Below are positions 30,453 to 64,000 of a stretch of DNA of 64,000 nt, in pieces. The notes under the pieces were generated by a model that had not been told where the DNA came from, did no database searches, and saw nothing but the letters and a program-made list of their open reading frames with translations. The DNA comes from Aquimarina latercula DSM 2041 (GTDB lineage Bacteria; Bacteroidota; Bacteroidia; Flavobacteriales; Flavobacteriaceae), in assembly GCF_000430645.1 (NCBI RefSeq), contig NZ_AUMK01000012.1, positions 1 to 64,000 on the forward strand. Reading direction: 5' to 3'. Position 1 is the first letter of the stretch, and every line of letters begins with the position of its first letter. The position numbers were made by a program, and so were the translations under genes.

Positions 30453-30641
30453 AAGCTTTGATTTTTACGGTTTAAAAGTGTAACAACATTAAAATATCAA
30501 ACTTTATCAGAGAATAAGCCTTGTTTAACAATGTATTGTAATTATTGTTCTAATTTAATTATGCTAAATTTTGTGCTTTTTTGATTATGTTTGTCCCGTA
30601 ATTGTGCCTTTATTTTGAAAGGGCACAAAAAGTTGATTACA

Positions 30642-37698: not shown

Positions 37699-38880
37699 AT
37701 GGAAGAAAATAGTTTAAGGGTTTATCCTGCAAATAATGGAGATAGTTTTTTATTAAATTTTCTTGGTTTTACATTTTTAATAGATGGCGGGTATGTTAAT
37801 ACATATAGGAGCTTTATTAAAGATGATTTATTAAAATTACAGAAAAAAACGGGCAAGTTAGATTACTTAATTGTAACTCATATAGACCAAGACCATATTT
37901 CAGGTATAAATAAGTTAGTAGAAGAAAATAATCAATCAACATTTATTAAAATTGATAATGTTTGGCATAATTCACTTAAACACCTGAGAGTTAAACGAGG
38001 TGAAGCAAAAGAAAATATATCTCCAATTATTGAAAATATAACATCACAAAGTTATTTACGTGAGCAATTAGAAGGTGAAAATGAAATTAGTGCTATACAA
38101 GGCTCTACATTAGCGAGATTAATTAATGAAGGTGGGTATAATTGGAATGCTGCATTTGATATGAAAGCCATTTCAATAAATAATAATCCAATTGTCCATA
38201 TAACAAAAGATATAAAACTTATTTTATTATCTCCGAACAATGATAAAATTGATAAACTATATGATTATTGGAAAAAAGAGTTGTTGAAATATGGATTTTT
38301 AGACGAAGTATTAGAGAATGTAATTTTTGATGATGCTTTTGAGATAATGGTGTCAAAGCAGAAATGTAAAAAAAAACCTAGAGCAAAGGACATTTCTAAT
38401 TCAATAGATCAAGTTGATAGTTTATTGTCATTAAAGTTTAATGAAGATGATTCTGCATCGAATGGATCATCCATTGCGTTTATACTAGAAGGGTGTAATA
38501 AAAGAGTATTATTTTTGGGAGATTCACATCCTTCATTGATTTGTAATTCCTTGAAAGCATATTATAAGTCGTATGAGTTTCCTATTCATTTTGATTTAGT
38601 AAAACTATCTCATCATGGAAGTTTTGCAAACAATAGTCCCGAGCTTTTCTCATTAATTAACTCAGATAAAATGATATTCTCAACTAATGGAAGAGGTCAC
38701 GGGCATCCAGATAAAGAAACAATAGCAAACATTATTTCAAAAAAAAATAAAGAATTGAAACTATATTTTAATTACAAGTCAGAAACGTCAACTATGTTCG
38801 ATAATTCAGAACTTAGAAAGAAATATGGATTTCAAATAAATGCAGGAACTGGTGAAACTCCGTTAGATATAAAATTTTAG
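37699..38880 (+). CDS. MBL-fold hydrolase, first gene of a defence-like operon
   Basis: A 393-aa metallo-beta-lactamase-fold protein of the ComEC/Rec2-like type. The metal-binding HxDxDH motif is His61, Asp63, Asp65 and His66 (VTHIDQDHISG). Further ligands are in VLFLGDSHP (Asp) and VKLSHHGSF (His). MBL proteins of this group often act as nucleases or phosphodiesterases. The stop codon is 1 bp from the start of the 1712-aa protease-STAND gene, so the two are translationally linked. MBL plus protease-STAND pairs are known from AVAST-type antiviral systems, and the same function is inferred here. Confidence 0.85.
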   Translation: MEENSLRVYPANNGDSFLLNFLGFTFLIDGGYVNTYRSFIKDDLLKLQKKTGKLDYLIVTHIDQDHISGINKLVEENNQSTFIKIDNVWHNSLKHLRVKRGEAKENISPIIENITSQSYLREQLEGENEISAIQGSTLARLINEGGYNWNAAFDMKAISINNNPIVHITKDIKLILLSPNNDKIDKLYDYWKKELLKYGFLDEVLENVIFDDAFEIMVSKQKCKKKPRAKDISNSIDQVDSLLSLKFNEDDSASNGSSIAFILEGCNKRVLFLGDSHPSLICNSLKAYYKSYEFPIHFDLVKLSHHGSFANNSPELFSLINSDKMIFSTNGRGHGHPDKETIANIISKKNKELKLYFNYKSETSTMFDNSELRKKYGFQINAGTGETPLDIKF

Positions 38881-38881
38881 A

Positions 38882-44761: not shown

Positions 44762-45256
44762 ATGATTGAAAAGAAAAAATACAGATTTAAAAAAGTCTCT
44801 CAAAAAGAATTATCTCTTTACATTTTACTAGGAGAATCTCTATCTGCAATTCAAATATTAGAGGACGCGCTAAGCCATTCGATTGTTTTAAAAAAAACAG
44901 AACCTGATCAAAAGGATGAGGCAGATGATCTTTTAAAAAAACAAAGGTTTTACACATTTGGTAAGGCCATAGGCATAGCCAAAAAAGAATCGTTACTACC
45001 CAAAAATTTGGAAATTGAATTGTCAAAACCTCTAATAGAAAGAAATTGGCTTATTCATGAAAGCATTACAAGTAATAAAAATGATTTTAAATCAGATGCT
45101 TATTTTAATAAGCTATTTGAAAAAATAAAACCTATAACATCAAAAGCTCATAAATTGAAGATCTCAATTGAACTTGATTTAATTGAATATTGTAAAAAGA
45201 AAGGAATTGGTATGAACAATGTAGAAAATGAAATGAATAATCACTGTGGAATTTAA
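44762..45256 (+). CDS. HEPN-motif protein, copy 2
   Basis: A 164-aa paralogue of the product of 36356-36850, about 85% identical. The Rx4H motif is retained (IERNWLIHE, Arg94 and His99). Differences are scattered and mostly conservative, which suggests both copies are still under selection. Its 85-bp leader is also duplicated: from the boundary motif through CGTAGTTAGTATTTAATTTT the two copies match closely. The stop codon again lies within a boundary motif. Both copies flank the MBL-STAND operon, one on each side. Confidence 0.7.
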   Translation: MIEKKKYRFKKVSQKELSLYILLGESLSAIQILEDALSHSIVLKKTEPDQKDEADDLLKKQRFYTFGKAIGIAKKESLLPKNLEIELSKPLIERNWLIHESITSNKNDFKSDAYFNKLFEKIKPITSKAHKLKISIELDLIEYCKKKGIGMNNVENEMNNHCGI

Positions 45257-47355: not shown

Positions 47356-47700
47356 ATGAGCAATTTATCAAAACCTTTGTACACCCTAACTGTAGGAGAG
47401 TATAAAGAATTACAAAAGGAAATTTTCAAAGAACAAGCAAAAGATTTATTGGAAAACAATACAGGGAAGTTGCACGAAAAAGAAGATAATGATATCATTT
47501 TCTTAGAAGATGTATGCCAGCTAACAGGATATACCAAACCTACTTTATATTCCAAGATTAGCAGGTTTGAAATCCCTGTGCTTTCAAGAGGAAAACCTCT
47601 TACTTTCTCAAGAAAAGATATAATTCAGTGGATACATCAAGGTAAACCAAACTTGCTTGAGAAAGAAGCCAATACGTATTTGAATAAAAGAAATATGTAA
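47356..47700 (+). CDS. Excisionase-like helix-turn-helix protein
   Basis: A 114-aa protein with an N-terminal Lys/Glu-rich helix and a C-terminal MerR/Xis-type winged HTH (DIIFLEDVCQLTGYTKPTLYSKI ... FSRKDIIQWIHQG). This is the usual helix-turn-helix protein encoded before primase genes in Bacteroidota integrative elements, where it acts as excision/transfer regulator. It begins the operon that continues with the primase 5 bp downstream, and palindromic sites lie just upstream of its ATG. Confidence 0.85.
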   Translation: MSNLSKPLYTLTVGEYKELQKEIFKEQAKDLLENNTGKLHEKEDNDIIFLEDVCQLTGYTKPTLYSKISRFEIPVLSRGKPLTFSRKDIIQWIHQGKPNLLEKEANTYLNKRNM

Positions 47701-47705
47701 AGGAT

Positions 47706-48656
47706 ATGGTCACGAAAGAAACGATTTTGCGTAAAACCCATTACGGACTAAAGATATTTGCCTATATCCTTCGGCAGTATTATACTAAAGAAACGGTACT
47801 ACGGGTAAGTGGAAGTAAATGCAAACCTACCTTCAATCCGTTTGCTGCACATCGAAGGAAAAGTTTACAAATAACAATAGTGAACAATAGTGCTGTTTAT
47901 CAGGATTTGGAAAGCAAAGAATTCCAAGGTGATGTATTTGACTTTGCACAGCTTTATTTTAAAGAAGATACCGAAATAGAACTGTTGCTTAAGATCAATG
48001 ACATTATGCACCTGAATTTAGAAACAAAACTATCCACATATGATCTAAGGCAAGAGGATATTCAGAATTTGCTGGATGGTATCGGAGATACAGAATGGGA
48101 GCCAAGGTTTAGCTATTTTTCTAAAAATCTGTATAACCTTACTCCAACCAAAACTATTGGATTATTAGAAGTATATCAGATGCTTACGGACACATCCCGT
48201 AAGCATCATACGGAATACTTGCGCAAGCTCTCATCCGAAAAAGAACAAAAAGACTATAAGAAAAAACACTTTGATTATGTTACTTTTTCAGGAGTGTTTA
48301 CCAAACGTAACAACAGCTCTCTAAGGACACACTCTAAGTTATTAACTCTTGATATTGATGGAATTCCTAACAAACAGGAATTACTGGATATTAGAAAAAC
48401 TTTGCTAAAAGACCCTCGCCTTCCATCTCAACTATTATTTGTTTCCCCAAGAGGAAATGGTCTGAAATGGGTTATTAAAATAGCTTTAGATGAAGTTTCC
48501 CATGTAGAATACTTTCAGGCTGTGATTAACTATGTCAAAGAAACCTATAGCATCCAGATAGACATTTCGGGTAGTGATGTAAGCCGGGGATGTCTTCTAC
48601 CTTATGATCCTGAAACTTATATCCATCCAAAATACAAAACTGATGTTGAAATTTGA
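47706..48656 (+). CDS. VirE N-terminal / BT4734-like primase protein
   Basis: A 316-aa protein. The first 115 residues look like a CHC2-less DNA-primase-associated domain (SGSKCKPTFNPFAAHRRKSLQITI ... FDFAQLYF). The second half fits the VirE-N/BT4734-like primase-polymerase domain: FDYVTFSGVFTKRNNSSL, LLTLDIDGIPN with the DxD-like acidic pair, then LLFVSPRGNGLKWVIKI and SGSDVSRGCLLPYDP. It is typical of integrative elements in Bacteroidetes and probably initiates DNA synthesis on the excised element. It precedes, and slightly overlaps, the next gene. Confidence 0.85.
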   Translation: MVTKETILRKTHYGLKIFAYILRQYYTKETVLRVSGSKCKPTFNPFAAHRRKSLQITIVNNSAVYQDLESKEFQGDVFDFAQLYFKEDTEIELLLKINDIMHLNLETKLSTYDLRQEDIQNLLDGIGDTEWEPRFSYFSKNLYNLTPTKTIGLLEVYQMLTDTSRKHHTEYLRKLSSEKEQKDYKKKHFDYVTFSGVFTKRNNSSLRTHSKLLTLDIDGIPNKQELLDIRKTLLKDPRLPSQLLFVSPRGNGLKWVIKIALDEVSHVEYFQAVINYVKETYSIQIDISGSDVSRGCLLPYDPETYIHPKYKTDVEI

Positions 48657-50436
48657 ACCTAAAAAATACCTGCCTTCAGCATCAGAAGCTGAAAATAAAA
48701 AAACAAAGAATTCGGAAGTTTCTGAAGCGGCTTTGACAATTGATGATTATGAAAAGGTAAAAGAAGTGGTCACTATACTGGAAACTTCTGGAATTGATAT
48801 TACTGCAAACTACAATGATTGGATTGTGATAGGGTTTGCCTTTGCAGATGCTTTTGGTAATATGGGAGAGGAATTATTTCTAAGTGTGAGTAGTAATTAT
48901 CCAGAATACAATGCCGATAGTTGTCGCAAACAATACCAAAAATGTTTACAGAGTAACAATTCAGGAGCTACGTTAGGCACATTTTTCCACTTGGCTAAAT
49001 TAGCCGGAGTTACGCCTTCAAAGCATAAACCGAAGGTACTTTCATTAACTACACCCAAAAAACATATTTCTGAAAAAGAAGAATTACAGGAGGAAGAACC
49101 TTCTTTACCTTCAATACCTCTATCCGTTTACAAACGACTACCTGGTTTTTTCAAAAAAGTAACAGCTTGTGCAACAAGTAATCAGGAAAGGGATTTATTG
49201 TTGTTGGGAAGCCTTACAGTAATCAGCAGCTGCTTACCAAATGTATATGGGATCTATGATCAAAGTATAGTATATCCAAATCTATTTTTATTTGTGACTG
49301 CTCCGGCTTCTTCTGGAAAAGGAAGAATCAATCTTTGCAGAAAATTAGTGTATCCTATCCATAAACAAAAAAGAGATACTACCAATTCTCAAAAAACACA
49401 GTATGAAGTAGAAATGGGTGAGTATTTTGATCTTAAGAAAAGTAAAAAAGGGGAAGCTCCGCCAAAACCTGAAGAACCAAGAGACCAGTTGTTATTTATC
49501 CCTGCTAACAATAGTGCTACTGGAGCTTTTGAATTACTGGCAAATAATGACGGCAAAGGCTTGATTTTTGAAACCGAGGGCGATACCCTTGCACAAGCAT
49601 TTAAAAGCGAACACGGGAATTATAGCGATGGGTTTAGAAAAGCCTTCCATCACGAAGAAATTAGTTACTATAGGCGCACAGCAAGTGAATATGTAGATAT
49701 TAAAAGTCCTCAGTTATCCGCTGTACTTTCTGGCACACCGGATCAAGTATTGTCTTTAATGCCAGATTCAGAAAATGGACTGTTCAGTAGGTTCATATTT
49801 TACAAAATGCAACGGCAAAAACAATGGAAAAATGTATTTGTTAATACCGATAAGGAATCACTAGATAGCATCTTTGATAAGCTTGGTAATCAATATTTTC
49901 AATACTACCAAATACTGGAAGGCTTTAACGAAGGAATAAAAGTAAGTTTACAATTGCACCATATTGAGAGATTCAATGCTTTCTTTAGCAAAGAATATGA
50001 CAAGTTCTTATTCTTACAGAAAACAGGGCTAGAAGCTTCTTTATTGCGGTTGGGATTGATCTGTTATCGCATCGTAATGATATTTACTATCATTCGATCT
50101 TTAGAAAATAATTCACTTGCCAATGTGTTGTATTGTCAGGATATTGATATGGAAAATGCGATTACTGTTGTGGAAGGTTTACTGGAGCATACCCAGCAGG
50201 TGTATCGTTATTTACCACAAAAGAAAAAAGTATTGCCAAAAAATAAAACCAAAAAAGAAAACTATTTGGATGGATTACCCAGCTCTTTTTCTGCTCAGGA
50301 ATATAAAAGTATAGCGAATAAGCTTCAAATACCGGATAAGACTGCGGAACGTTACATAAAGCAGTTTGTTGAAAAAGGATATCTACAACGTATCGGTCAT
50401 GGGCAGTATCTTCATACAGGTAAAAAAGAAGATTAA
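48643..50436 (+). CDS. PriCT-2 / DUF3987 primase-helicase-like protein
   Basis: A 597-aa protein from the ATG at 48643, which overlaps the upstream gene by 14 bp; a start at 48604 would add 13 residues. The N-terminal part is a PriCT-2-type domain (ANYNDWIVIGFAFADAFG ... YPEYNADSCRKQYQKC). The bulk is DUF3987 with a P-loop-like element (FVTAPASSGKGRINL) and LIFETEGDTLAQ. The C-terminus looks like a winged helix (IANKLQIPDKTAERYIKQFVEKGYL). Such proteins drive replication of integrative elements. A strong hairpin follows the stop codon. Confidence 0.88.
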   Translation: MLKFEPKKYLPSASEAENKKTKNSEVSEAALTIDDYEKVKEVVTILETSGIDITANYNDWIVIGFAFADAFGNMGEELFLSVSSNYPEYNADSCRKQYQKCLQSNNSGATLGTFFHLAKLAGVTPSKHKPKVLSLTTPKKHISEKEELQEEEPSLPSIPLSVYKRLPGFFKKVTACATSNQERDLLLLGSLTVISSCLPNVYGIYDQSIVYPNLFLFVTAPASSGKGRINLCRKLVYPIHKQKRDTTNSQKTQYEVEMGEYFDLKKSKKGEAPPKPEEPRDQLLFIPANNSATGAFELLANNDGKGLIFETEGDTLAQAFKSEHGNYSDGFRKAFHHEEISYYRRTASEYVDIKSPQLSAVLSGTPDQVLSLMPDSENGLFSRFIFYKMQRQKQWKNVFVNTDKESLDSIFDKLGNQYFQYYQILEGFNEGIKVSLQLHHIERFNAFFSKEYDKFLFLQKTGLEASLLRLGLICYRIVMIFTIIRSLENNSLANVLYCQDIDMENAITVVEGLLEHTQQVYRYLPQKKKVLPKNKTKKENYLDGLPSSFSAQEYKSIANKLQIPDKTAERYIKQFVEKGYLQRIGHGQYLHTGKKED

Positions 50437-52628: not shown

Positions 52629-54560
52629 TTATTTTTCAGGAATTAGAGTTAGTGTTCTTAACATCCAATGTCTGTTTAACTCATTTTTGGTATCATTATT
52701 AAGAAGTTCAATATTAACCGATTTATTTGTAATTAGTTCTTTAAGCTTATTTGATATTTCTATTTTGTTGTTCCAATAGGTGTTATGTAAATATGAATTT
52801 TCTTGAGACTCTGCAAGTAAAATATGATTAGGTAATGAAATTTGAAAAACGCCGCCTTGTTCAAATATATTCCCTTTCTTTGTTATGAAAAAATCATCAA
52901 TTGCTAAGACGTCTAACTGATTAGTTAGGAAACAATTAATAGCATCTGCAGCAGAGTCAACAATTGGCTCGACATTGTTGTTGAACGAAGTGTTCAACAA
53001 AATAGGAATGTTAGTAATCTCGTTAAATTTACTAATTAGCTTCCAATATTTGGGGTTAGATTTTTTGCATACTGTCTGAATTCTGGATGTCCCATCTATA
53101 TGAGTTGTTGCGCCTAAGATAGATCTATATTTCTCTTTAACTTTTAGTATGAAAGTCATAAAGGGATAGTCCTTTTTTTCTTCATTGGGAATGTCAAAAA
53201 ATTCTTCAACTGAGTCTTTTAAAATTGAAGGCGCAAATGGGCGGAATCCTTCCCTCATTTTTATTATGGCATTTACACGACTTTTATTTTCTTTAGGTCT
53301 TGGGTCTGCAAGAATACTTCGATTGCCTAATGCTCTTGGGCCATATTCAGATTTACCCTGAAACCACCCAATAACTTTATTTTCAGCCAGACTATTTGCT
53401 ACATCTTGGCATATATCAACTTTTTTTTCATAATTAATATAGTCATTCCAAGTTTTTAATATCTTTTCTATTTCATTAGAGTTTTCACAATCAGAACCCC
53501 AATAGATATCTTTCAAATTTGAAAAACTATACTCCTGTTTTTTATTTTCTTCGTGATAACATAATAAAGCACTACCTATTGACAGTCCATTATCAGCCGA
53601 TGCCGGATGAACAAAAATATCTTTAAAGAAATTATTATATAAGAGTTCTCCTGAAAGTTTACAATTGAGCGCTACACCCCCCGACATGCATAGATAATTT
53701 ATACCCGTTTCCCTTTGAAAGTAAGAAATTAGATGAACAACAATCTCTTCCAGTGATTTTTGCAAAGATGCTGCTATATCCATATGTAACTGTTCAACTT
53801 TTTGTCCAGCTTTTCTTGGTTCACATATCTCTTCTAATTTCTTAAAATTCTCTTTATTAATGGAATACTTACCTTCAGGTAGAAGGGTGTAAAATTCTTT
53901 AAATATACTGTAAAAACGTTCTGATTTACCATAAGGTGCTAATCCCATTACTTTGTATTCATCAAAGAATTTAAATCCTAAAAACTTAGTAAAATAATTA
54001 TAATAACTACCTAGTGAATCAGCGCCTTGAATGGTTCTATAGTGTTCTAATTCCCCATTAATACCTTTATAAACAGACCCAGAAATACCATCTCCCATGC
54101 CATCTAAAGTAACTACTAAACTATCCTTAAATCCTGATTGAAAATACGCCGTAGCTGCATGTGCATAATGATGATTATAAAATTTTATTTTAGAAGAATC
54201 TATTTCTTGATCAAAAATATCCGAAAGCAAAAGTTGAATAAACTTTTTCCCTTTTAAATCGTAACCAAATTTTTTAAGAACATCATCAAGATGAACTTCC
54301 TCCGTACTTATTGTAAAATAGTCGATATCATTATAAGAAAAGTTTCCTGACTTTAAGCATTTTTTGATAGCGTTTATCGGAAAAAGATTCGTGTGTTTAA
54401 TTCTAGAAAGACGTTCTTCCTCATATGCTGAAATTATTTCACCATCCACTAAAAGTACAGCGGAAGAATCATGATAATTATAAGGAGTTACAGCTTTACA
54501 TACATTCCAATCTACTAGATTTGGTCCTCCACTGATCCCAAGAATCGTTTGTCTTTTCAT
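52629..54560 (-). CDS. Carbamoyltransferase, NodU/CmcH/TobZ family
   Basis: A 643-aa O-carbamoyltransferase. The N-terminal Kae1-like domain starts with ILGISGG and YHDSSAVLLVDGEIISAYEE, and carries the metal-binding His130-His131-x-x-His134 (NHHYAHAATA). The C-terminal YrdC-like domain has FQGKSEYGPRALGNRSILADPR and REGFRPFAPSIL, both family signatures. The enzyme makes carbamoyl-adenylate from carbamoyl phosphate and ATP and moves the carbamoyl group onto a hydroxyl. It lies 54 bp downstream of the lipoprotein genes on the same strand, so it is the last gene of the leftward peptide-modifying operon. A hydroxylated peptide residue would be a suitable acceptor (inference). Confidence 0.93.
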   Translation of the reverse strand: MKRQTILGISGGPNLVDWNVCKAVTPYNYHDSSAVLLVDGEIISAYEEERLSRIKHTNLFPINAIKKCLKSGNFSYNDIDYFTISTEEVHLDDVLKKFGYDLKGKKFIQLLLSDIFDQEIDSSKIKFYNHHYAHAATAYFQSGFKDSLVVTLDGMGDGISGSVYKGINGELEHYRTIQGADSLGSYYNYFTKFLGFKFFDEYKVMGLAPYGKSERFYSIFKEFYTLLPEGKYSINKENFKKLEEICEPRKAGQKVEQLHMDIAASLQKSLEEIVVHLISYFQRETGINYLCMSGGVALNCKLSGELLYNNFFKDIFVHPASADNGLSIGSALLCYHEENKKQEYSFSNLKDIYWGSDCENSNEIEKILKTWNDYINYEKKVDICQDVANSLAENKVIGWFQGKSEYGPRALGNRSILADPRPKENKSRVNAIIKMREGFRPFAPSILKDSVEEFFDIPNEEKKDYPFMTFILKVKEKYRSILGATTHIDGTSRIQTVCKKSNPKYWKLISKFNEITNIPILLNTSFNNNVEPIVDSAADAINCFLTNQLDVLAIDDFFITKKGNIFEQGGVFQISLPNHILLAESQENSYLHNTYWNNKIEISNKLKELITNKSVNIELLNNDTKNELNRHWMLRTLTLIPEK

Positions 54561-54614: not shown

Positions 54615-55448
54615 TTAATATTTGCAAAATTCGTTAATGGCAACTGAAATATCTTCTTTGTAGAGTTGTCCGAAAACTTCTCTAAATGCATCATTTTTTA
54701 TATAGTTAGAGTAATTAAAAGCTAAAGAAAAATTTTCACACGCTTCCTTATTTTTTTGGAGTTTTTTCAAAACCGCACCTTTATGATAATAAGCTTCTGG
54801 GAATGTTTGATAGTACTTAATAGCTTTATTAATACTTTCTAAAGCTTCGTTATACTTTTCTATTTCATAAAGGCAAATACTTTTATACAAAAAAGTATCA
54901 ACATTTACCCAATCTTCTCCAGAGCTATTTACTTCTTCTTCTATATAAATGTCAAAATATTCTATAGCTTTTTTATATTCTTTCATTTGCCAATAGGTTT
55001 TTCCCAATAAAAAAAGTACGGGTTCTCCTCTAGCTGCTAAGCCTTTAACATTTGGATTGAATTTAATTAATTGATTAAAATCATTAATTGCTCCTTCATA
55101 ATCTCTTAAGTAATAAAGTCTAACAGCTCCCCTCCAGCCAATATGTACATTAGGATTATACTTAACTGCTTTATTCATGAATTCAAAATAATCAATATAA
55201 TCTCCTTCTTTTATTGACCAAGAAGATTTTTCGGACCAGACATCGCTTAAAGTCGAATCAATAGATATTACACTATCAAAATAAATTTTCTGAATTTCAG
55301 AGCCTTGTCTTACATAGTCATAAGATGCTCCTTTTTTTAATAAATAATTCATTTTAGATTTATCATTCTTTGGTTCCGAACAACAAAGCAGAAAGAATGA
55401 CAAAACAAATGTGACTAATATGTTTATATTATGAGAGTTACGAATCAT
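54615..55448 (-). CDS. TPR-repeat lipoprotein in the RiPP operon
   Basis: A 277-aa protein with a lipoprotein signal (lipobox LLCC) and about five TPR units (GWRGAVRLYYLRDYEGAINDF, KYNEALESINKAIKYYQTFPEAYYHKGAVLKKL). Its start codon overlaps the preceding gene's stop by 4 bp (ATGA type), indicating translational coupling. It might scaffold an envelope complex or confer immunity to the exported peptide. No family more specific than TPR was recognised. Confidence 0.8.
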   Translation of the reverse strand: MIRNSHNINILVTFVLSFFLLCCSEPKNDKSKMNYLLKKGASYDYVRQGSEIQKIYFDSVISIDSTLSDVWSEKSSWSIKEGDYIDYFEFMNKAVKYNPNVHIGWRGAVRLYYLRDYEGAINDFNQLIKFNPNVKGLAARGEPVLFLLGKTYWQMKEYKKAIEYFDIYIEEEVNSSGEDWVNVDTFLYKSICLYEIEKYNEALESINKAIKYYQTFPEAYYHKGAVLKKLQKNKEACENFSLAFNYSNYIKNDAFREVFGQLYKEDISVAINEFCKY

Positions 55449-56521
55449 GGCAGTATTTCTTTTATTTGACCATTCTTAATTTTAAAAGTAAGGTGTTTAT
55501 AGGTGTCAATAACTTCTTTTCTATAAGAACTATTAGGAATCCATTCTTTAAGGTCTTTAGTCAATAAGAATAACTGCGAAACTATTTCCGGATTAAACTT
55601 AACTTCTTTAAAATGAACATCAGTCTCTTGTATACTATACCTCCCTGTTTTTCCATTACAGTTAACTACAAACCTTATTCGGACATAACCGTTTTGTGAT
55701 GAGTCAATTGGGGATGAATATTTTTCTAAGAAATACTCACTTAAAAATCTCTTACCCCCTTTATATCTTGTACCTCTATTTCCATAATAGTATTCTCCAA
55801 TTTGATGCTCATTGCAAATTGAAAAAGACGAATCACTATCTATACCTCTTTTATTCCTTCTAGTTGATATTAATCGTTTTTGGTAACTATAAAAAGAATC
55901 ATTGCTAATAAATGATAATTCTTTTTCAGTTAATTTTGTTAGTTGGTATATTCTAAGATATTTTTTTCCTTCCTGTATTAAAAACTTATATCCATGGTAG
56001 GATAAGGTATCTATATCATATTTTTCATTTTCTAAAAAAAAATCATTCCCATTAAGAATATATTTACGGCTTAACAACCATTTATTAGTATCAAAAGTGT
56101 TTTCAATAATAAAATCTATAGATTCTTTAGATTTATTAATTTTTTCTTCCCAAACATTCTCGTATAAATCGTTAAATGATTTGATTTTAGGAACTTTAAT
56201 CGCTTTGTGAAATAATAATGTTATGTTTGTGTCTTTGACAGATCTATACATTAAGGTGTTATTCTTTTTATAATTTAATAAAAAATTATTCCCCTTTATC
56301 TTTAGAGTATCAATTGACGAAAACGATATTTCTTTTTTTGAATTTATATTTAATAGTTTCTTTTGGGAATAATTTAAAATTATTGGGTTGGGGAATTCTA
56401 TTGCGTCTTTATAATAAGATCCGGCACCCATCCATATTTCGTAAGATTTTTTTTTATCACTACAATTTAAACATAAATAACTCAAGACTAACGGGAAAAA
56501 ATAATATTTTAATCTTTTCAT
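55445..56521 (-). CDS. Lipoprotein with TonB C-terminal-like tail in the RiPP operon
   Basis: A 358-aa protein with a lipobox LCLNC. Its first 210 residues are beta-rich and unrecognised (DSLSYHGYKFLIQEGKKYLRIYQL). The C-terminal 110 residues (YVRIRFVVNCNGKTGRYSIQETD ... EWIPNSSYRKEVIDTYKHLTFKIKNGQIKEILP) have the look of Bacteroidota TonB-like C-terminal domains, including the VNCNGKTG block. Both its ends overlap neighbouring genes by 4 bp, tying it to the modifying enzymes. An outer-membrane role in peptide response or immunity is a guess. Confidence 0.75.
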   Translation of the reverse strand: MKRLKYYFFPLVLSYLCLNCSDKKKSYEIWMGAGSYYKDAIEFPNPIILNYSQKKLLNINSKKEISFSSIDTLKIKGNNFLLNYKKNNTLMYRSVKDTNITLLFHKAIKVPKIKSFNDLYENVWEEKINKSKESIDFIIENTFDTNKWLLSRKYILNGNDFFLENEKYDIDTLSYHGYKFLIQEGKKYLRIYQLTKLTEKELSFISNDSFYSYQKRLISTRRNKRGIDSDSSFSICNEHQIGEYYYGNRGTRYKGGKRFLSEYFLEKYSSPIDSSQNGYVRIRFVVNCNGKTGRYSIQETDVHFKEVKFNPEIVSQLFLLTKDLKEWIPNSSYRKEVIDTYKHLTFKIKNGQIKEILP

Positions 56522-57777
56522 TTTGGTAATTCGTTTATTTCTTTAAACTTTAGGTAAGAGTAAACAAATGGTTGATTAGAAAAATCATATCGGTAAAAAA
56601 TATCGGTATTTGAGGAAAGGATTTCATAACAACTTTCATCGAGATAAGTATAAATTTCCTGACCTTCCTTTGTTAAAACTTCTTCAAACTTAATTTTCTC
56701 TATTCCAGTTCTAAATCTTGTACCTTTAATTGCAAGTCGCCCCAGTAATTCATTCTTAATCTCAGTATCAAAACTATAGTTTCTAAAAACTTTAGTTAAT
56801 ACTCTAACACCTGTGCTTACTGTATATAAACCGTGAAATGCATCGTAGAAGCCTCTAACTTCATGTCCGCTTTTATCTATATGTATCAAATCTCTTAGTG
56901 GAGTACTAGGATTAATATTAATGTATTCTTTTAGATTTGACGTAATAGCATTAAAAACATTATGTGAACATTGATGTACAACTTCATCTAAAAAAAATGT
57001 TTCATTACTGTTACTTTCTACACTAAAAAATGAAGTGCCATGAATATTTTTAGTCACAAAACCTCTCATAAATGGATTATTAAAACAGAATATCTTCTTA
57101 GTAGATTGAAGATACTTTTGATACTGATCTGGGGCAATTTCTTTTAGTATAGAAAACGACTTTTCCAGTCTATTTTTAATTAGAAGAGCCTCTTTTTTTA
57201 AAGTTTTTAAGTAGTCATACTGATCATTATATTGTTCTCTATAATTCGGAATAGAATTGTATTTGATTATTGAATTTCGTTCAATAATTTCCCAACCATC
57301 AAGAATTTCAGTGTAGATAGGATTAGAGTAAACACAAAGCTCAATACCAGGTGCTGAATCTAAAAACAATAAATTTTCAAATTCAAAACAAATCATTTCT
57401 TTTTCTTTGGAAAAGAGACTGATTTCACTTCTTTCTTTGTCCCATTTTAACAGCAACTTTTTTTCTTTTAAATCTTTGATTTTAAGATATCCAAGTTTAG
57501 GTAAATAAATAACCCCAAATTTATCTACAAATACTGTTATTTCAGAGGGTCTCTTATCTTGATGTATATAACCAAATAGAATTTGTTCCAAAGTCATTTT
57601 GGTATGATTACCAGTGAAGAAACCAAATAATAATGGTTCTAAAAACACATTGTCATCATGAAAATCAAGAAGATCAAATAGTTTTTGAATTTTTTTATAT
57701 ATAAGAGTTCTAATACTATCACTTAACTCATTTTGTCCCTTATTAAAATGGTAATCGAGAACTTCTTTTTTACTCAT
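56518..57777 (-). CDS. Divergent HExxH-type peptide hydroxylase candidate
   Basis: A 419-aa protein. The central part reads HGTSFFSVES ... FFLDEVVHQCSHNVFNAI, then GHEVRGFYDAFHGLYTVSTGVRVLTKVF. This order matches the Fe(II)/2-oxoglutarate HExxH-type peptide beta-hydroxylases of RiPP clusters: an HxxxH pair (His268, His272), a further His (His315) and an Arg (Arg308). Here, however, the Glu of HExxH is Gln269. No other family was recognised. The gene overlaps both neighbours by 4 bp, placing it between the aldo/keto reductase and the lipoprotein. Hydroxylation of a precursor peptide residue is inferred. The loss of Glu is unusual and could alter or abolish activity. Confidence 0.6.
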   Translation of the reverse strand: MSKKEVLDYHFNKGQNELSDSIRTLIYKKIQKLFDLLDFHDDNVFLEPLLFGFFTGNHTKMTLEQILFGYIHQDKRPSEITVFVDKFGVIYLPKLGYLKIKDLKEKKLLLKWDKERSEISLFSKEKEMICFEFENLLFLDSAPGIELCVYSNPIYTEILDGWEIIERNSIIKYNSIPNYREQYNDQYDYLKTLKKEALLIKNRLEKSFSILKEIAPDQYQKYLQSTKKIFCFNNPFMRGFVTKNIHGTSFFSVESNSNETFFLDEVVHQCSHNVFNAITSNLKEYININPSTPLRDLIHIDKSGHEVRGFYDAFHGLYTVSTGVRVLTKVFRNYSFDTEIKNELLGRLAIKGTRFRTGIEKIKFEEVLTKEGQEIYTYLDESCYEILSSNTDIFYRYDFSNQPFVYSYLKFKEINELPK

Positions 57778-59048
57778 GATTCATTAATTTTTCTTAATTG
57801 ATCAATGTACTTTATATTTTTCATTCCCACTAAAACATGATTTATTCCAGATTTATTAAAGTAATAGTCTAATGCTATTTCGGTCAATGGTTTTGTTGTG
57901 TTTGCAGAAATTATTTTTCTGTTGATTAAATCATTCTTTAACCTCAATGCGTTTTCGGTTAATTGTTTTTTAGTATATGTATACCAATGTGTTCTGAGTT
58001 CATTAAGCAAAATTAATACAGGTTTGTCAATTTTTTCTTGATATAAAACATTTATAAATGGTATCAAGTGCTGATTAATTGCAACATCTAAAGCTTCAGG
58101 ATTGGCAATTATTTTTCTATTTTCAACAAAGAATTTAATAGGGGCAAAAGAAAATATATAAGACTTTTCTTTACTGATCTTATTTAATTGAATTTGTAAA
58201 ACATCTATAAAATTTCTGAATAATTTTTCCTCTATATTAGGATTTAATTTTTTTATTTCTTCATCATAGGTAGCTAATCTTACAACAGTATTATTGAATG
58301 TTGTATTTAGAGGCCTGTTGGTAACCGAAATCATTTTATTTTTATGGATAAGTTCTAGTAGAGATTTAGTATTAAATTTTTTCTGACTTGCATCAGTTTC
58401 ATTGAGATTATAAGGAAATTGTATGAATTTAAGATTTCCGTCTACTTTCTTTTCTGTCAATAAGTCCATTATTTTTTGTAAATCTACAAACTTATTGTTT
58501 TCTGGTAATGCAAAAGTATTTGAACTAATACCTAAGTATCTAATAATCCCTTTTTGGACTAAAGTATTCAAAAACTCTATTGCTGAAACGATATCATCAT
58601 ATATTTGAGGCTCTTTATTTAAATCTAAAAAATAACGCTCTACACTATGAAGCATAAAACAATCTATATAATCCCTCCCCAATCTTTTAAGTGAAGTTTC
58701 AATTTGAGACAAAAGGTATTTTGGATCTATGGAATAATACGAATTCTTGCCAGTTTCAAGATAGTTAAGTTGATTCTTTGATTTTACTTCATGGAAATAT
58801 TGCGTATTGACACCACCAATGTATCCCGCTTTGGTTATAATAAAACTTTTGCTCGAAATATCTTTTCTTTTCTCAAATAAATTGCCGATAAGTTTCTCTG
58901 ATAATCCATTTGAATAATTGGAAGCTGTATCAATAAGATTTATGCCATTATCGATGGCATATTCTAAAGCTTTCCAGTGTTCAATATTTTTTAAAGACAT
59001 CCTATAGGTGCCAATACCTAGTCGCGATATTTCGTTCAGTGAAATCAT
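57774..59048 (-). CDS. Aldo/keto reductase with long C-terminal extension
   Basis: A 424-aa protein whose first 340 residues form an aldo/keto reductase barrel. The catalytic tetrad is visible: Asp40 and Tyr45 (DTASNYSNG), Lys73 (ITKAGYIG) and His134 (CFMLHSVE). The GMKNIKYIDQL segment near the C-terminus is the late cofactor-binding region, displaced by an insertion of about 90 residues (roughly 250-345) relative to ordinary AKRs of about 320 residues. It is first in the five-gene operon and overlaps the next gene by 4 bp. In this setting it may reduce or oxidise a modified peptide side chain; the direction and substrate are unknown. Confidence 0.88.
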   Translation of the reverse strand: MISLNEISRLGIGTYRMSLKNIEHWKALEYAIDNGINLIDTASNYSNGLSEKLIGNLFEKRKDISSKSFIITKAGYIGGVNTQYFHEVKSKNQLNYLETGKNSYYSIDPKYLLSQIETSLKRLGRDYIDCFMLHSVERYFLDLNKEPQIYDDIVSAIEFLNTLVQKGIIRYLGISSNTFALPENNKFVDLQKIMDLLTEKKVDGNLKFIQFPYNLNETDASQKKFNTKSLLELIHKNKMISVTNRPLNTTFNNTVVRLATYDEEIKKLNPNIEEKLFRNFIDVLQIQLNKISKEKSYIFSFAPIKFFVENRKIIANPEALDVAINQHLIPFINVLYQEKIDKPVLILLNELRTHWYTYTKKQLTENALRLKNDLINRKIISANTTKPLTEIALDYYFNKSGINHVLVGMKNIKYIDQLRKINES

Positions 59049-59117: not shown

Positions 59118-61322
59118 ATGCTAAAAAAGAAGTTTCCATTTTATAAACAATACGATAATACAGACTGTGGACCCGCTTGTTTACGAATTATTGCTAAATA
59201 TTATGGTAAAGTGTTTTCTCCGCAATATTTGAGAGAACTTTGTCATATAACGCGAGAAGGTGTCACAGTAATGGGCATTTCTGATGCTGCAGAGGTAATT
59301 GGTTTTAGATCATTACCTGTTAATGTAACCTGGGATTCTTTAGAAAAGGAAGTGCCGTTACCCTGTATTGCACATTGGAAGCAACGTCATTTTGTGGTTG
59401 TTTATAAGGTAGAGAAAGACAAAGTATACATTTCAGATCCAAATTTCGGTCTTTTGAATTATTCTCGGGAGCAGTTCATTAAAGCTTGGCAGAATACAAA
59501 ATATTTAGAAAAAGATGATGAAGGTTTGCTTATTTTATTGGAGCCGACACCAGAATTTCATAGCAATTCTGATGTCAAAGAAAAGCAAATAGGGTTTAAA
59601 TCTCTCATCCCTTATTTGACCAATTATAAAAAGTATTATTTTCAATTAATTGCAGGATTAGTTGTAGGAAGTGTAATTCAAATAATTTTACCATTCTTAA
59701 CCCAATCCATTGTAGATCGTGGAATTAATTACAGAGATCTTAATTTTATTTACATCATATTAATAGCTCAATTAACCCTGTTCCTTTCGCAAACTAGTGT
59801 TAATATTATTAGAAGTTGGCTTTTAGTATATACCGGGTCAAAAATAAATATTGCTTTAACGGCCGATTTTTTGGTTAAATTATTAAAACTTCCAGTATCA
59901 TTTTTTAGTTCGAAAATCTCTAGTGACATTTTACAAAGGGTTCAGGATTCATCAAGGATAGAAAATTTTTTATCAAGTTCTCCAAATACTGTATTTTCAG
60001 TATTCAACATGATCATTTTTTCAGTTATTCTTTTTTATTATAGTCCCATTATTTTCTTAATTTTTCTGCTTGGTGCTAGTCTTTATCTTCTTTGGATATT
60101 TCTTTTTATGAAAAAAAGAGCAGAAATAGACCATAAAAGATTTCAAGAATCATCAGGAGGTTCTTTCAATTTGTTGCAAATTGTGGATGGTATTCAAGAA
60201 ATAAAAATTAATAACTCAGAAAAAAGAAGAAGATGGGATTGGGAAGAACAAAGAATAAAATTGTACAAAACTTCTATAAAAAGTTTGAAACTAGCTCAAA
60301 TACAAAACAATGGAGCAAGTTTTTTTAATGAATTAAAAAACATAATAATATCATATGTAGCGGCAGTATCAGTAATTGAGGGGTCTATGACATTAGGTAT
60401 GATGCTGGCTGTGCAATATATCATAGGTCAAATTAATGCACCATTAATAGGGTTAGTGCAGTTTTTTAAAGATATGCAGGATGCTAAAATTAGTCTTAAA
60501 AGGATTAATGAAGTACATGGGCTAGAGGATGAAAATAATTTAGAAATTTCACAAAAAAATATACCCACTGATGATATTACTCTGAATAAGATAAAATTTC
60601 AATATGGAGGAATTAGATCAAAAGTTATATTAGAAGATGTAAGTTTTCAGATTCCTAATGGAAAAGTTACGGCAGTGGTTGGAGCAAGTGGTAGTGGTAA
60701 GACTACTTTATTAAAACTACTACTTAAGCTTTATAACCCAACTTCAGGAACAATAAAAATAGGAGGAGCCAATATTGAAAATCTTGACACAAAAGAATGG
60801 AGAAGTAAGTGTGGTGTGGTTATGCAAGATGGTTTTATCTTTACTGATTCAATTGCACGTAATATAACGGAATCAAATTCCGAAGGACTTATTGATAAAG
60901 AGAGATTACAAAGAGCTGTTCAAATAGCTAATATAGAAGGTTTTGTTGAGTCACTTCCAGGAGGGTATAATACCAGGATTGGACCACCTGGAACTAGTGG
61001 AGTAAGTGTTAGTGGAGGACAGGCACAACGAATATTGATTGCTCGCGCTGTTTATAAAAATCCTGATATATTATTTTTTGATGAAGCCACATCGGCATTA
61101 GATGCTAATAATGAAAAAGTAATAATGGAGAATTTGGAAAGATTTTTTATGAATAGAACTGTTTTAATTATAGCCCACCGATTAAGTACTGTAAAAAATG
61201 CAGATCAAATTATTGTCTTGGACAAGGGAAGCGTTATTGAACAAGGAACTCATATAGAACTTACTAACCTAAGGGGTGTATATTATACGTTAGTGAAAAA
61301 TCAATTAGAATTAGGGAATTAG
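59118..61322 (+). CDS. C39-peptidase ABC exporter for double-glycine peptides
   Basis: A 734-aa peptide exporter. The N-terminal C39 cysteine protease domain (1-150) has Cys17 (NTDCGPACL), His91 (QRHFVVVY) and Asp107 (ISDPNFG), which cleave after Gly-Gly in leader peptides. The transmembrane domain spans about 165-450. The C-terminal ATPase has Walker A GASGSGKTT, signature VSGGQAQR and Walker B ILFFDEATS. This is a standard leader-removing, secreting ABC transporter. Downstream are the HlyD-type partner and the two GG precursor genes, so its substrate is very likely those peptides. Confidence 0.96.
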   Translation: MLKKKFPFYKQYDNTDCGPACLRIIAKYYGKVFSPQYLRELCHITREGVTVMGISDAAEVIGFRSLPVNVTWDSLEKEVPLPCIAHWKQRHFVVVYKVEKDKVYISDPNFGLLNYSREQFIKAWQNTKYLEKDDEGLLILLEPTPEFHSNSDVKEKQIGFKSLIPYLTNYKKYYFQLIAGLVVGSVIQIILPFLTQSIVDRGINYRDLNFIYIILIAQLTLFLSQTSVNIIRSWLLVYTGSKINIALTADFLVKLLKLPVSFFSSKISSDILQRVQDSSRIENFLSSSPNTVFSVFNMIIFSVILFYYSPIIFLIFLLGASLYLLWIFLFMKKRAEIDHKRFQESSGGSFNLLQIVDGIQEIKINNSEKRRRWDWEEQRIKLYKTSIKSLKLAQIQNNGASFFNELKNIIISYVAAVSVIEGSMTLGMMLAVQYIIGQINAPLIGLVQFFKDMQDAKISLKRINEVHGLEDENNLEISQKNIPTDDITLNKIKFQYGGIRSKVILEDVSFQIPNGKVTAVVGASGSGKTTLLKLLLKLYNPTSGTIKIGGANIENLDTKEWRSKCGVVMQDGFIFTDSIARNITESNSEGLIDKERLQRAVQIANIEGFVESLPGGYNTRIGPPGTSGVSVSGGQAQRILIARAVYKNPDILFFDEATSALDANNEKVIMENLERFFMNRTVLIIAHRLSTVKNADQIIVLDKGSVIEQGTHIELTNLRGVYYTLVKNQLELGN

Positions 61323-61324
61323 GT

Positions 61325-62635
61325 ATGTCTGGTAGGAAAATAAAGAAAATTGATCTGTTTGATAATAAAAGTGATTTTGTGAAAGAAGTATTATACAAAA
61401 CTCCCAATTGGATCATAACTTGGGGTAATACTATTTTTTTATTATTCATAGGACTATTACTATTATTAAGCTGGCTAATAAAATACCCCGATGTGATTTT
61501 AAGCGAAGCTATAATCACTTCTTCAAATCCTTCTATCAAAATTATTGCCCAAAATAATGGGAAAATACAACATCTTTTTATTTCCGAAAATGAAATTGCA
61601 AAGGAGAACAAATGGCTTTGTATAATAGAAAATACAGCAGATTATAAGGATGTACTTAAGTTGAAGGAATTTTTATTGCCAAAAAAAACATTGTTAAACG
61701 ATTCACTATTATTTAAAAGCGTGGAGAATTTAAAATACCCTAATCTTAATCTTGGAGAAATACAACAAAATTATAATGATTTTTTAAAAGCAGCCAAAGA
61801 ATACGGTAATTTTATTAAGAACAGACCGCAACTTGTTTCAAATGAGTATAATCAACAAAGGCTTAAGAAATATTACCTTTTAAAACAAGAATTATTTTCG
61901 CAAAAAAAGCTCGCTTCCAAAAAGCAAAAACTTTTACAAGAGGATTATGATAGAAACCTAATTCTATTCAAAAAAGGAGTAATTTCTAAAAAAGAACTTG
62001 AAAACAAAGAAATCACTCTTTTAGAACAGCAGCAAAGTCTTAAGAATATTGATTCTGAATTAGCTAGATTAGAAACTGAAGTAAATTTAGTTTTAAGAGA
62101 AGCTTCTGGGCTAAGCATGAATGATATAGAATTTGTTCTCGAATATCAGACTAACTTAGTAAATAGTTATTATGTATTGATCGAGACTATTGATAATTGG
62201 GAACAAAAATATGTTCTGAAATCTCCGATAGAGGGAAGGGTTAACTTTTTTAATTTTTGGAGCAAAAATCAATTTGTCAAACAAGGAGATAATTTTTCAA
62301 TAATTACGCCTATTACCCAAGACACTGTTTTTGCAAGGGTTAAAATACCTATACAAAATGCGGGAAAGATTAAAAAAGATCAACAAGTTCTCATCAAGTT
62401 AAATAGCTATCCGTTTGAGGAGTATGGTGTTATATTGGGTAAAATTAAACAAATTACCTCGGTCTCGGATAATAATTTTTACACAGGATATGTTTTGTTG
62501 GAAAATGGTTTAAGCACAACATATGATAAAGAATTAGAACTAAAAAATGAATTATTAGGTAATGCCGAAATCGTTACAGAAAACCTAAGATTGATTGAAA
62601 GATTTTTCTATAAAATTATAAAGCAAATAAAATAA
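61325..62635 (+). CDS. HlyD-family secretion adaptor
   Basis: A 436-aa membrane-fusion protein of the type paired with C39 exporters. It has one N-terminal membrane helix (IFLLFIGLLLLLSWLI, about 38-53), a barrel start (PSIKIIAQNNGKIQHLFISENE), a long coiled coil (about 170-260, LKKYYLLKQELFSQKKLASKK), and the returning barrel strands (LKSPIEGRVNFFNFW ... GDNFSIITPI). It starts 2 bp after the exporter gene. It would bridge the inner-membrane exporter to an outer-membrane channel, which is not encoded in the window. Confidence 0.93.
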   Translation: MSGRKIKKIDLFDNKSDFVKEVLYKTPNWIITWGNTIFLLFIGLLLLLSWLIKYPDVILSEAIITSSNPSIKIIAQNNGKIQHLFISENEIAKENKWLCIIENTADYKDVLKLKEFLLPKKTLLNDSLLFKSVENLKYPNLNLGEIQQNYNDFLKAAKEYGNFIKNRPQLVSNEYNQQRLKKYYLLKQELFSQKKLASKKQKLLQEDYDRNLILFKKGVISKKELENKEITLLEQQQSLKNIDSELARLETEVNLVLREASGLSMNDIEFVLEYQTNLVNSYYVLIETIDNWEQKYVLKSPIEGRVNFFNFWSKNQFVKQGDNFSIITPITQDTVFARVKIPIQNAGKIKKDQQVLIKLNSYPFEEYGVILGKIKQITSVSDNNFYTGYVLLENGLSTTYDKELELKNELLGNAEIVTENLRLIERFFYKIIKQIK

Positions 62636-62765: not shown

Positions 62766-62927
62766 ATGAGTAGATTATCATTAGATGCTTTTAAAGCTAA
62801 AGCACAAACTAGTCAATCAGAAGAATTAGAAAATCTTACAGGTGGTATTTTAGGTGCCTGTCATCCTGGTGAAAAAAGCTGGTTCACCGAAATTATCGAA
62901 GAGATTTTGGATGATTTGAATAATTAG
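62766..62927 (+). CDS. RiPP precursor peptide 1 (double-glycine leader)
   Basis: A 53-aa peptide. The leader begins MSRLSLDAFKAKAQ, has an acidic end (EELENLTGG) and a Gly26-Gly27 cleavage site for a C39 peptidase. The predicted core starts ILGACHP and continues GEKSWFTEIIEEILDDLNN. The same 34 residues, through CHP, occur unchanged in precursor 2 with only synonymous codon differences. After that the sequences differ completely. The core includes a single Cys32 and His33 that are shared with precursor 2. No stop codon or frame problem was seen. A terminator follows at 62984. Confidence 0.9.
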   Translation: MSRLSLDAFKAKAQTSQSEELENLTGGILGACHPGEKSWFTEIIEEILDDLNN

Positions 62928-62983
62928 AAATATATTTTTCTAGTTCTACGGAATAGTTAGACAGTTGTCTACAATTAATTAAG

Positions 62984-63013
62984 TCCAGAGAAAAAAGTTT
63001 CTCTGGATTTTTT
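62984..63013 (+). terminator. Terminator after precursor gene 1
   Basis: A perfect 10-bp stem, TCCAGAGAAA (62984-62993) and TTTCTCTGGA (62998-63007), is followed by a T run. It shows that each precursor gene forms its own transcription unit. Confidence 0.8.
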
Positions 63014-63329
63014 GATCTTAAACATTATTATGATCCCTTGTTTGAGCTATTGTTAAAAATTTTTGAACTGAAAAAATACTTTTGCCCAGTTTATAATAAT
63101 GTTGTTCAGGAATAAGGTGCTAAAATAAAAAAATAAGATTATAATATCTCAGTAGAACTTAGGTGAAATTTAGTTGTTTTCAAAAAAATCTTAAAAAAAT
63201 TAAAATTTACAGGTAACATTCTTTAAGAATAAGACACTTATATAAAGCGAGCAATAATATTATTTTTTCTAATAAAATTTATTATCATTGCTACTTGAAA
63301 TAATTATTTTAACTTTTAAAAATTAAATT
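63014..63329. other. Region between the two precursor genes
   Basis: No gene is seen. The right 120 bp (63211-63329) are a diverged duplicate of the leader in front of precursor 1 (62645-62765): both contain GTAACATT, a run of TTATTATnATTG-like sequence and the end AACTTTTAAAAATTAAATT before the ATG. Conserved TAnnATTG elements at similar distances suggest duplicated promoters. Confidence 0.6.
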
Positions 63330-63512
63330 ATGAGTAGATTATCATTAGATGCTTTTAAAGCAAAAGCGCAAACTAGTCAATCAGAAGAATTAGAAAACCT
63401 TACAGGTGGAATTTTAGGTGCTTGTCACCCGTCGGATGCTGAGATGATAGCAGAAGGATATAGTAACCTTTTGCAAACTTTGCATGATAAAATAGAAGAT
63501 CTTCTTAAATAG
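63330..63512 (+). CDS. RiPP precursor peptide 2 (double-glycine leader)
   Basis: A 60-aa paralogue of precursor 1. The first 34 residues (through LTGGILGACHP) are identical, with seven synonymous codon differences and no amino acid change over them. The tail (SDAEMIAEGYSNLLQTLHDKIEDLLK) shares no similarity with that of precursor 1. That pattern means the GG site and the adjacent ILGACHP are under selection, while the tail varies freely, as is usual when one enzyme set modifies or exports many cores. A terminator follows. Confidence 0.9.
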   Translation: MSRLSLDAFKAKAQTSQSEELENLTGGILGACHPSDAEMIAEGYSNLLQTLHDKIEDLLK

Positions 63513-63684: not shown

Positions 63685-64000
63685 ATGAATGCAGGAGATA
63701 AAATAGGAACAAAAAATGCAGCTTGGTCATTTTCTGGTAAAGTTCCTACAAGTTTTGATAATCACGTATCTAAATCAGTACCTCTTTATAACCAAGGTCA
63801 TGATTTGACCTGTAGATTGAGTGATTTTTTTATATCAGATGGCTCCATCTGTTATGAAATAGGGAGTAGTACTGGGGAATTAACAAAGAAAATATCATTA
63901 CATAATCAACATAAAAATGTTCAGATTATTGGAATTGACCCGGTAATTGAAATGATTGATGTTGCCAATGAAAAGTGTAAGGATATACCTAATGTATCTT
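63685..64000 (+). CDS. SAM-dependent methyltransferase, N-terminal part
   Basis: The frame starts at the ATG at 63685 and runs off the window after 105 codons. The product begins MNAGDKIGTKNAAWSFSG and has FDNHVSKSVPLYNQGHDLTCRL, a block seen in CmoA-like class I methyltransferases, then ICYEIGSSTGELTKKIS (motif I), VQIIGIDPVIEMID (motif II with the acidic ribose ligand). It could be a tailoring enzyme of the RiPP locus, since its strand and spacing suit this, but the window ends before its context can be seen. Confidence 0.8.
   Translation, partial: MNAGDKIGTKNAAWSFSGKVPTSFDNHVSKSVPLYNQGHDLTCRLSDFFISDGSICYEIGSSTGELTKKISLHNQHKNVQIIGIDPVIEMIDVANEKCKDIPNVS

Follow-up and report, generated by a model that had tools for sequence, protein, structure and literature searches.

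Gene content of the locus

The window, i.e., the whole stretch of DNA analysed, comprises bases 1-64,000 of a contig of 221,562 bases. It carries two small genes, those of precursor peptide 1 (53 aa; 62766..62927, plus strand) and precursor peptide 2 (60 aa; 63330..63512, plus strand). In precursor 1 a leader ending in GG (residues 26-27) is followed by the core ILGACHPGEKSWFTEIIEEILDDLNN; precursor 2 has an identical leader and the core ILGACHPSDAEMIAEGYSNLLQTLHDKIEDLLK. The cores begin ILGACHPGEK... and ILGACHPSDA..., respectively. Given the position of GG, the Cys-His pair of each peptide falls at +5 and +6 and is thus separated from GG. The Cys-His codons (62859..62864 in precursor 1 and 63423..63428 in precursor 2, both plus strand) mark the predicted modification site, which is invariant in relatives.

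Codons 1-34 of the two genes encode the same residues and differ at exactly seven places (codons 11, 13, 23, 27, 31, 33 and 34), each time silently and in the third position. In simulation, the probability that seven random substitutions in the shared block would all be silent was 2e-5 to 1e-4. The tails beyond residue 34 could not be aligned; their local score was equalled by 2,061 of 5,000 shuffles. Both the coordinates and the counts reproduced those of the preliminary description, which had reported twin genes with 34 shared residues, seven silent codon changes and unrelated tails. The 35 bases 5' of both start codons match except for one indel, and so the duplication included the 5' region. 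The leader had only two matches in its own genome, namely these two genes. It has Glu(-8)-Leu(-7) of the C39 consensus (as given in the accessible part of PMC6363468), without the consensus Leu(-12).

The precursor genes are preceded on the plus strand by a peptidase C39/ABC exporter (PCAT; 59118..61322; PF03412, PF00664, PF00005), predicted to cleave at GG and to export, and by a HlyD-type periplasmic adaptor (61325..62635; PF13437, with TIGR01843 under its cut-off). With short GG-leader precursors adjoining a C39-ABC gene, the locus has the gene arrangement of a RiPP with GG leader and C39 (PCAT) export. The minus strand encodes an aldo/keto reductase (AKR, 424 aa; 57774..59048; PF00248, 9.9e-30), a 419-aa protein predicted to have the fold of alpha-KG HExxH-type oxygenases, with HQCSH replacing HExxH (56518..57777), a lipoprotein-like protein (55445..56521) and a TPR protein (54615..55448; TPR models), the last two having BLAST matches in 10 and 12, respectively, of the 18 related loci that were searched. 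On the plus strand past the precursors, the gene of a CmoA-like methyltransferase-fold protein (235 aa) starts in the window (63685..64000) and ends at contig position 64392; the gene of a carnosine N-methyltransferase-like protein (CARME, 440 aa; PF07942) follows outside the window at contig 64399-65721.

Two further neighbors were considered as members of the system and rejected. For a NodU-type carbamoyltransferase beside the cluster (window 52629-54560) no BLAST match was listed in the related loci (25 + 9 + 3). For an ABC exporter at contig 65827-67650, the matches in cluster loci fall on the C39 transporter.

Other features were observed in the vicinity. At window 37699-44020, adjacent MBL-fold and 1,712-aa protease-NTPase proteins match PADLOC Avs1a (6.7e-98) and Avs1b (6.3e-219); by these models the region would encode anti-phage defence of the AVAST type I kind. 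The Avs1-like genes are flanked by two proteins of 164 aa (36356-36850 and 44762-45256) that share about 85% identity. A tyrosine-recombinase-like ORF and excisionase/primase-like ORFs were read by eye at window 30591-31766 and 47356-50436. The gene content suggests a mobile element immediately left of the peptide cluster. A TIR-domain protein with weak defence-model matches is encoded at contig 68152-69138 (L006:10153-11139).

Related clusters in other genomes

The CARME-like protein was rare: counting the own genome each time, it was found in 1 of 56 relatives, in 2 of 397 genomes of the family and in 3 of 395 of the phylum. An alignment of CmoA-like proteins was scanned against 84,980 species via two short patterns, a non-exhaustive search that produced 25 loci. 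Seven of them carry AKR, HExxH-like, C39, CmoA-like, CARME and precursor genes; these clusters belong to an uncultured Tenacibaculum, Croceitalea, Cellulophaga, two Chitinophaga, Flavobacterium IB48 and Moheibacter. A CARME match was found in none of the remaining 18 loci. HlyD had no BLAST match in either Chitinophaga cluster. The AKR had a BLAST match in all seven clusters and was read by eye in an eighth (G780); its residues D40, Y45, K73 and H134, which we take to be the aldo/keto reductase tetrad, were kept in the one pair aligned. The seven clusters, the window and G780 make up the nine window-type clusters, with 18 precursors in total. The Croceitalea cluster is G266; L025 lies on the same contig and was counted once.

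A precursor profile matched 14 of 397 genomes, and several of the matches in genomes without a CARME match adjoin relatives of the 419-aa protein. A profile of the latter matched 9 of 397 genomes. Relatives of G268 gave two added genomes (3 of 70), and relatives of G348 gave none (1 of 70). Candidates from G177, G185, G275, G205, G260 and G210:C1 were excluded before counting (long frames, a stop, or another type); also outside the counts are G362, G210:C5 and G004, in which Cys-His is present with no HExxH gene nearby. Other leader-bearing small ORFs were not found in the clusters when the ORF lists were read by eye, the small plus-strand ORFs of L023 being unlisted and some lists holding only ORFs with GG. 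In L090, two small GG peptides that differ in type and lack Cys-His are encoded roughly 2 kb beyond the exporter genes. A viral scan gave no relative. Among the titles and abstract beginnings listed from open-licence literature, none described this peptide system.

Conservation of the precursor core

We observed Cys at +5 and His at +6 in all 18 precursors of the nine clusters, which come from Bacteroidota and share one enzyme set, the precursor pattern for the seven CmoA-scan clusters having required CH. With the 18 precursors aligned on GG, the residues were I (15), T (2) and V (1) at +1, L (17) and M (1) at +2, G (16) and A (2) at +3, and A (14), S (2), T (1) and D (1) at +4. The Cys and His positions each use both synonymous codons. 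Past the pair, each of the positions +7 to +24 had an entropy above 2.5 bits; at +7, C was the most frequent residue (6 of 18 precursors).

The codon differences between precursors of the same cluster, where pairs from a single cluster are mutually dependent, followed the same boundaries. The GGxxxxCH block had 49 silent and 7 replacement differences (104 comparisons), compared to 4 silent and 91 replacement differences in the eight codons after CH (104 comparisons). In the leader, 31 differences were silent and 39 were replacements (156 comparisons). The comparison of homologs proposed in the preliminary description found the block from GG to CH constrained and the following codons freely replaced. 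A studied C39 protease accepts varied residues after GG (accessible part of PMC6363468), so cleavage alone hardly accounts for this conservation. That a constant head ending in Cys-His is under selection, with the remainder of the core free to vary, is well supported.

The preliminary description had placed a conserved Cys-His-Pro directly after the cleavage site and had taken ILGACHP as a whole to be held by selection. The conservation of Cys-His stood, while the adjacency to the cleavage site (the pair is at +5/+6) and the proline did not: Pro follows Cys-His in only 2 of 18 window-type precursors, both from the window, and was rejected as a part of the motif. Pro also follows Cys-His in G213, in G376 and in one motif of G348. 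Similarly, CH preceded by ILGA or close variants is retained in the window-type relatives, but ILGA is not kept in clusters lacking the methyltransferase and reductase genes. The proposal that Cys-His is the probable modification site was supported further, since the pair is the sole core feature kept in 28 of 28 precursors near a gene of the HExxH-fold oxygenase (19 clusters).

The HExxH-fold oxygenase-like protein

Pfam and NCBIfam gave no match for the 419-aa protein of the window. An AlphaFold model built with nine relatives as input had a pLDDT of 80.7. In VIA-align it scored Z 23.8 to SjiH 22ob (343 residues, rmsd 3.9) and Z 22.6 to the ChlB HExxH domain 8s5f (277 residues, rmsd 2.9), while the row after these two had Z 7.4. 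The title of the SjiH structure gives no activity, and no paper on SjiH was found in open-licence literature. Foldseek returned only chains of the ChlB HExxH domain below E 0.001, the best at 6.4e-9, with moderate TM values of 0.46-0.59. TIGR04267 (alpha-KG HExxH peptide beta-hydroxylase) matched weakly in 3 of the 9 relatives (best E 0.0015) and left the window protein unmatched.

Residues H268, H272, H315, E343 and R354 are invariant in the nine window-type proteins, and the Glu of HExxH is Gln in seven of them. H268 and H272 are kept in all 19 main copies aligned (nine window-type and ten from clusters that have the HExxH-like gene as described in the next section). In the main copies of these ten HExxH-only clusters E343 is kept throughout, H315 in all but G348 (Asn), and R354 is Lys in six. 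Retention of the two histidines together with replacement of Glu by Gln fits a metal site and misfits a zinc protease. The metalloprotease reading of HQCSH was rejected, given Gln in 7 of 9 proteins and far lower scores of zinc-protease structures. The model and these residues indicate that the 419-aa protein is likely an alpha-KG-dependent HExxH-fold oxygenase.

The known chemistry of this family is broad. In the accessible part of PMC12636437, ChlH beta-hydroxylates Asp and His in a RiPP; other members hydroxylate Gln, Phe or Pro (passages of PMC13060819), the chemistry also includes backbone cleavage, and PflC can hydrolyse leaderless peptides, according to the literature passages available. 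The specificity of alpha-KG HExxH enzymes is described as currently unpredictable (passages of PMC13060819). Since the family also acts on Asp, Phe, Gln and Pro and cleaves backbones, His is only the likeliest target here.

HExxH-only clusters and doubled motifs

Ten clusters have a HExxH-like enzyme and, within the fetched stretch, no BLAST match to the CARME, CmoA-like or AKR proteins. Every precursor in them has Cys-His, and the preceding residues vary (TQNA, SENA, IDQA, TAND, TFGD and others). A C39 match by BLAST was found within the fetched stretch of only six of the ten. In G213 the HExxH-like gene seems to be split over two frames.

The HExxH-like gene is doubled in 4 of the 10 clusters (G268, G348, the second G861 locus and G864), the gene numbers being hand-entered and, for most clusters, covering the fetched stretch only. 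The precursors of these two-copy loci carry two Cys-His motifs, five residues apart. In the 15 single-copy clusters (six HExxH-only and nine window-type), each of 24 precursors has one motif. G861 holds both kinds of locus. All four second copies are without the metal-binding His pair, with F/K, F/S, H/K and K/K at 268/272. Thus, the number of motifs does not track the number of active enzymes, and we rejected the idea of two active enzymes for two motifs. By their residues, the second copies are probably partners rather than second catalysts, and the match between copies and motifs is best explained by one active oxygenase that handles a doubled substrate together with a metal-less partner. 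A single genus supplies three of the four two-copy loci; the match perhaps rests on one or two events rather than four. As an observation in its own right, the second copies (L091, L092, L106 and L107) are candidate pseudoenzyme partners located beside doubled Cys-His motifs.

Cys-His precursors also occur in G362 and G210, where no HExxH match was found in about 19 kb; neither genome is among the nine that matched the profile. A homolog in G004, a genome of the same genus as the window (L008:10252-10410), reads MSRLSLGAFKAK...IGGNSDSCH... and is perhaps a remnant; neither a HExxH-like gene nor a recognised modification enzyme was read in 20 kb there.

The methyltransferase-like proteins

The CARME-like protein of the window matches PF07942 at 3e-14 (53.4 bits, cut-off 27), and this model matches all nine CARME-like proteins (E up to 1). 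Its D249 aligns with Asp316 of CARNMT1 and is invariant in 9 of 9 (numbering from chain offsets). Asp316 binds imidazole according to the accessible part of PMC6400499, and CARNMT1 methylates His in proteins (passages of PMC12275196). Position 347 of CARNMT1 (His) corresponds to Phe279 in the window protein by hand numbering. Six of the nine proteins have a C-terminal extension; the PqqD-like assignment of this tail is tentative because the Pfam match reached E 0.034 in only two of nine. The structural model is weak (pLDDT 63.9), with the best structural matches tied with other methyltransferases; it is also close to OvoM, whose structure was solved with 5-thiohistidine. There is a weak match to the OvoA C-terminal model (24.4 bits, cut-off 170).

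The CmoA-like protein scored 156.2 bits, below the TIGR00740 cut-off of 193.3. Arg199 of CmoA, the one residue said to touch the Cx-SAM carboxyl (accessible part of PMC4482062), is replaced by Thr or Ser throughout the clusters (T192 in the window protein); the adjacent position, R193, is mostly occupied by Arg. A role as a standard Cx-SAM synthase was rejected since Arg199 is replaced, and the change to Thr makes an ordinary methyltransferase or a variant synthase more likely. Among distant CmoA-like homologs, however, 8 of 10 neighbors tested, drawn from 9 of the 18 non-cluster loci, have methyltransferase domains, which leaves some likelihood for a variant synthase. CmoA-like proteins 42-63% identical to that of the window were observed in other phyla (L031-L048), where several adjoin genes read as NeuB-type sugar genes.

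Interpretation

The reading that we prefer, with a probability of about 0.56, is that of a new RiPP family: Cys-His is the target of the oxygenase, the His is probably N-methylated by the CARME-like enzyme, and leader cleavage at GG as well as export fall to the C39 transporter. Conservation, gene linkage and the predicted fold are what the analysis shows, and the Cys-His site is well supported; the chemistry, the order of reactions, the cleavage, the export and the biological role we infer, as follows. The leader of the precursor would be recognised first. The HExxH-fold oxygenase (56518-57777) would then oxidise Cys-His, most likely by hydroxylation of the His beta carbon. In the subtype found in the window, the CARME-like enzyme would probably N-methylate the same His, and the CmoA-like protein and the AKR would perform further steps, for which ILGA is presumably held. 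Finally, the C39 transporter would remove the leader at GG and, with HlyD, export peptides having a common modified N-terminal head and differing tails. The HExxH-only clusters, which keep Cys-His and lose ILGA, argue for this reading; on the other hand, beta-hydroxy-His alone leaves the equally fixed Cys unexplained.

In a reading that we consider unlikely, Cys is the main target or becomes joined to His: the oxygenase would crosslink Cys-His or oxidise Cys, and the methyltransferases would finish the product. Cys is as invariant as His in the 28 precursors, the accessible part of PMC12636437 mentions an alpha-KG enzyme forming a Cys-Tyr crosslink in a RiPP, and the closeness of the CARME model to OvoM with 5-thiohistidine and the weak OvoA C-terminal match point the same way. 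The reactions of the HExxH family in the literature passages available are, however, hydroxylation and backbone cleavage, with no crosslinking member among them. A specific and quite doubtful form would have the Cys sulfur joined to the His imidazole by the oxygenase and the ring N-methylated by the carnosine/OvoM-like enzyme, giving a ribosomal ovothiol-like redox head with exchangeable tails.

Extended recognition elements occur in RiPPs. If GG-ILGACH were such an element, the chemistry would be located in the variable tails. Retention of ILGA or near variants only together with the CARME, CmoA-like and AKR genes agrees with that, as does the association of a probably inactive second HExxH copy with a second Cys-His, which resembles a binding partner. 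Against this reading, which we regard as unlikely and as somewhat less probable than a reaction at Cys, no tail position is conserved in the 18 precursors and some tails have only nine residues.

An unmodified Cys-His head that serves the mature peptide as a metal or redox site, with the enzymes using another substrate, is improbable. Cys and His are typical metal ligands, and the precursors of G362 and G210 have the pair with no HExxH gene nearby; yet in 19 clusters with a HExxH gene, every precursor near it carries Cys-His. The last alternative, conservation due to recent duplication of the twin genes only (the outcome which the preliminary description tied to random residues after GG in relatives), has the duplicated 5' region in its favor but is very improbable and was rejected, because Cys(+5) and His(+6) occur in 18 of 18 precursors, including those of the six other genera Tenacibaculum, Croceitalea, Cellulophaga, Flavobacterium, Moheibacter and Chitinophaga, and the codons have turned over synonymously.

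Here a candidate RiPP family is defined by two core residues that go with one enzyme family, and such a pairing is a good computational guide to the site of modification. If the preferred reading is true, a relative of the carnosine methyltransferase works in peptide biosynthesis, a route to beta-hydroxy-N-methyl-histidine exists independently of the thioamitides, and a fixed modified head is combined with freely varied tails, which would be useful for engineering. With the Cys-His family, the specificity of alpha-KG HExxH enzymes can also be tested directly.

Comparison with known systems

The alpha-KG HExxH peptide beta-hydroxylases (TIGR04267; ChlB/ChlH, BpmH, PflC/PosC, PesO, BipH) have in common with the present system the predicted fold, HxxxH and adjoining RiPP-like precursors. 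Unlike them, the window-type clusters have HQxxH in 7 of 9 proteins, a GG leader with C39, the Cys-His motif, and the AKR, CmoA-like and CARME companions, and TIGR04267 matches weakly in three of nine.

The end state predicted here, a RiPP whose His is both N-methylated and beta-hydroxylated, is likewise that of the thioamitides, in which TsaG/TsaJ carry out His bis-N-methylation and beta-hydroxylation (accessible part of PMC8153245). The thioamitides, however, use other enzyme families (pfam06325, pfam05721) and, as described there, also bear thioamides and an AviMeCys ring.

The CARNMT1/carnosine N-methyltransferase family (PF07942) shares with the cluster proteins the model match in 9 of 9 and the equivalence of Asp316 and D249. 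Human CARNMT1 acts on carnosine and zinc-finger His in the accounts accessible to us, whereas the cluster proteins have a C-terminal extension in 6 of 9 and Phe279 in the window member. The 3-thiaglutamate pathway (TglE/TglF) and CmoA/CmoB offer a further parallel: according to the accessible part of PMC10491745, a CmoA homolog is combined with a second methyltransferase in a peptide pathway, as is the case here. The difference from both pairs is that the CmoA-like proteins of the clusters have T or S at the position of CmoA Arg199.
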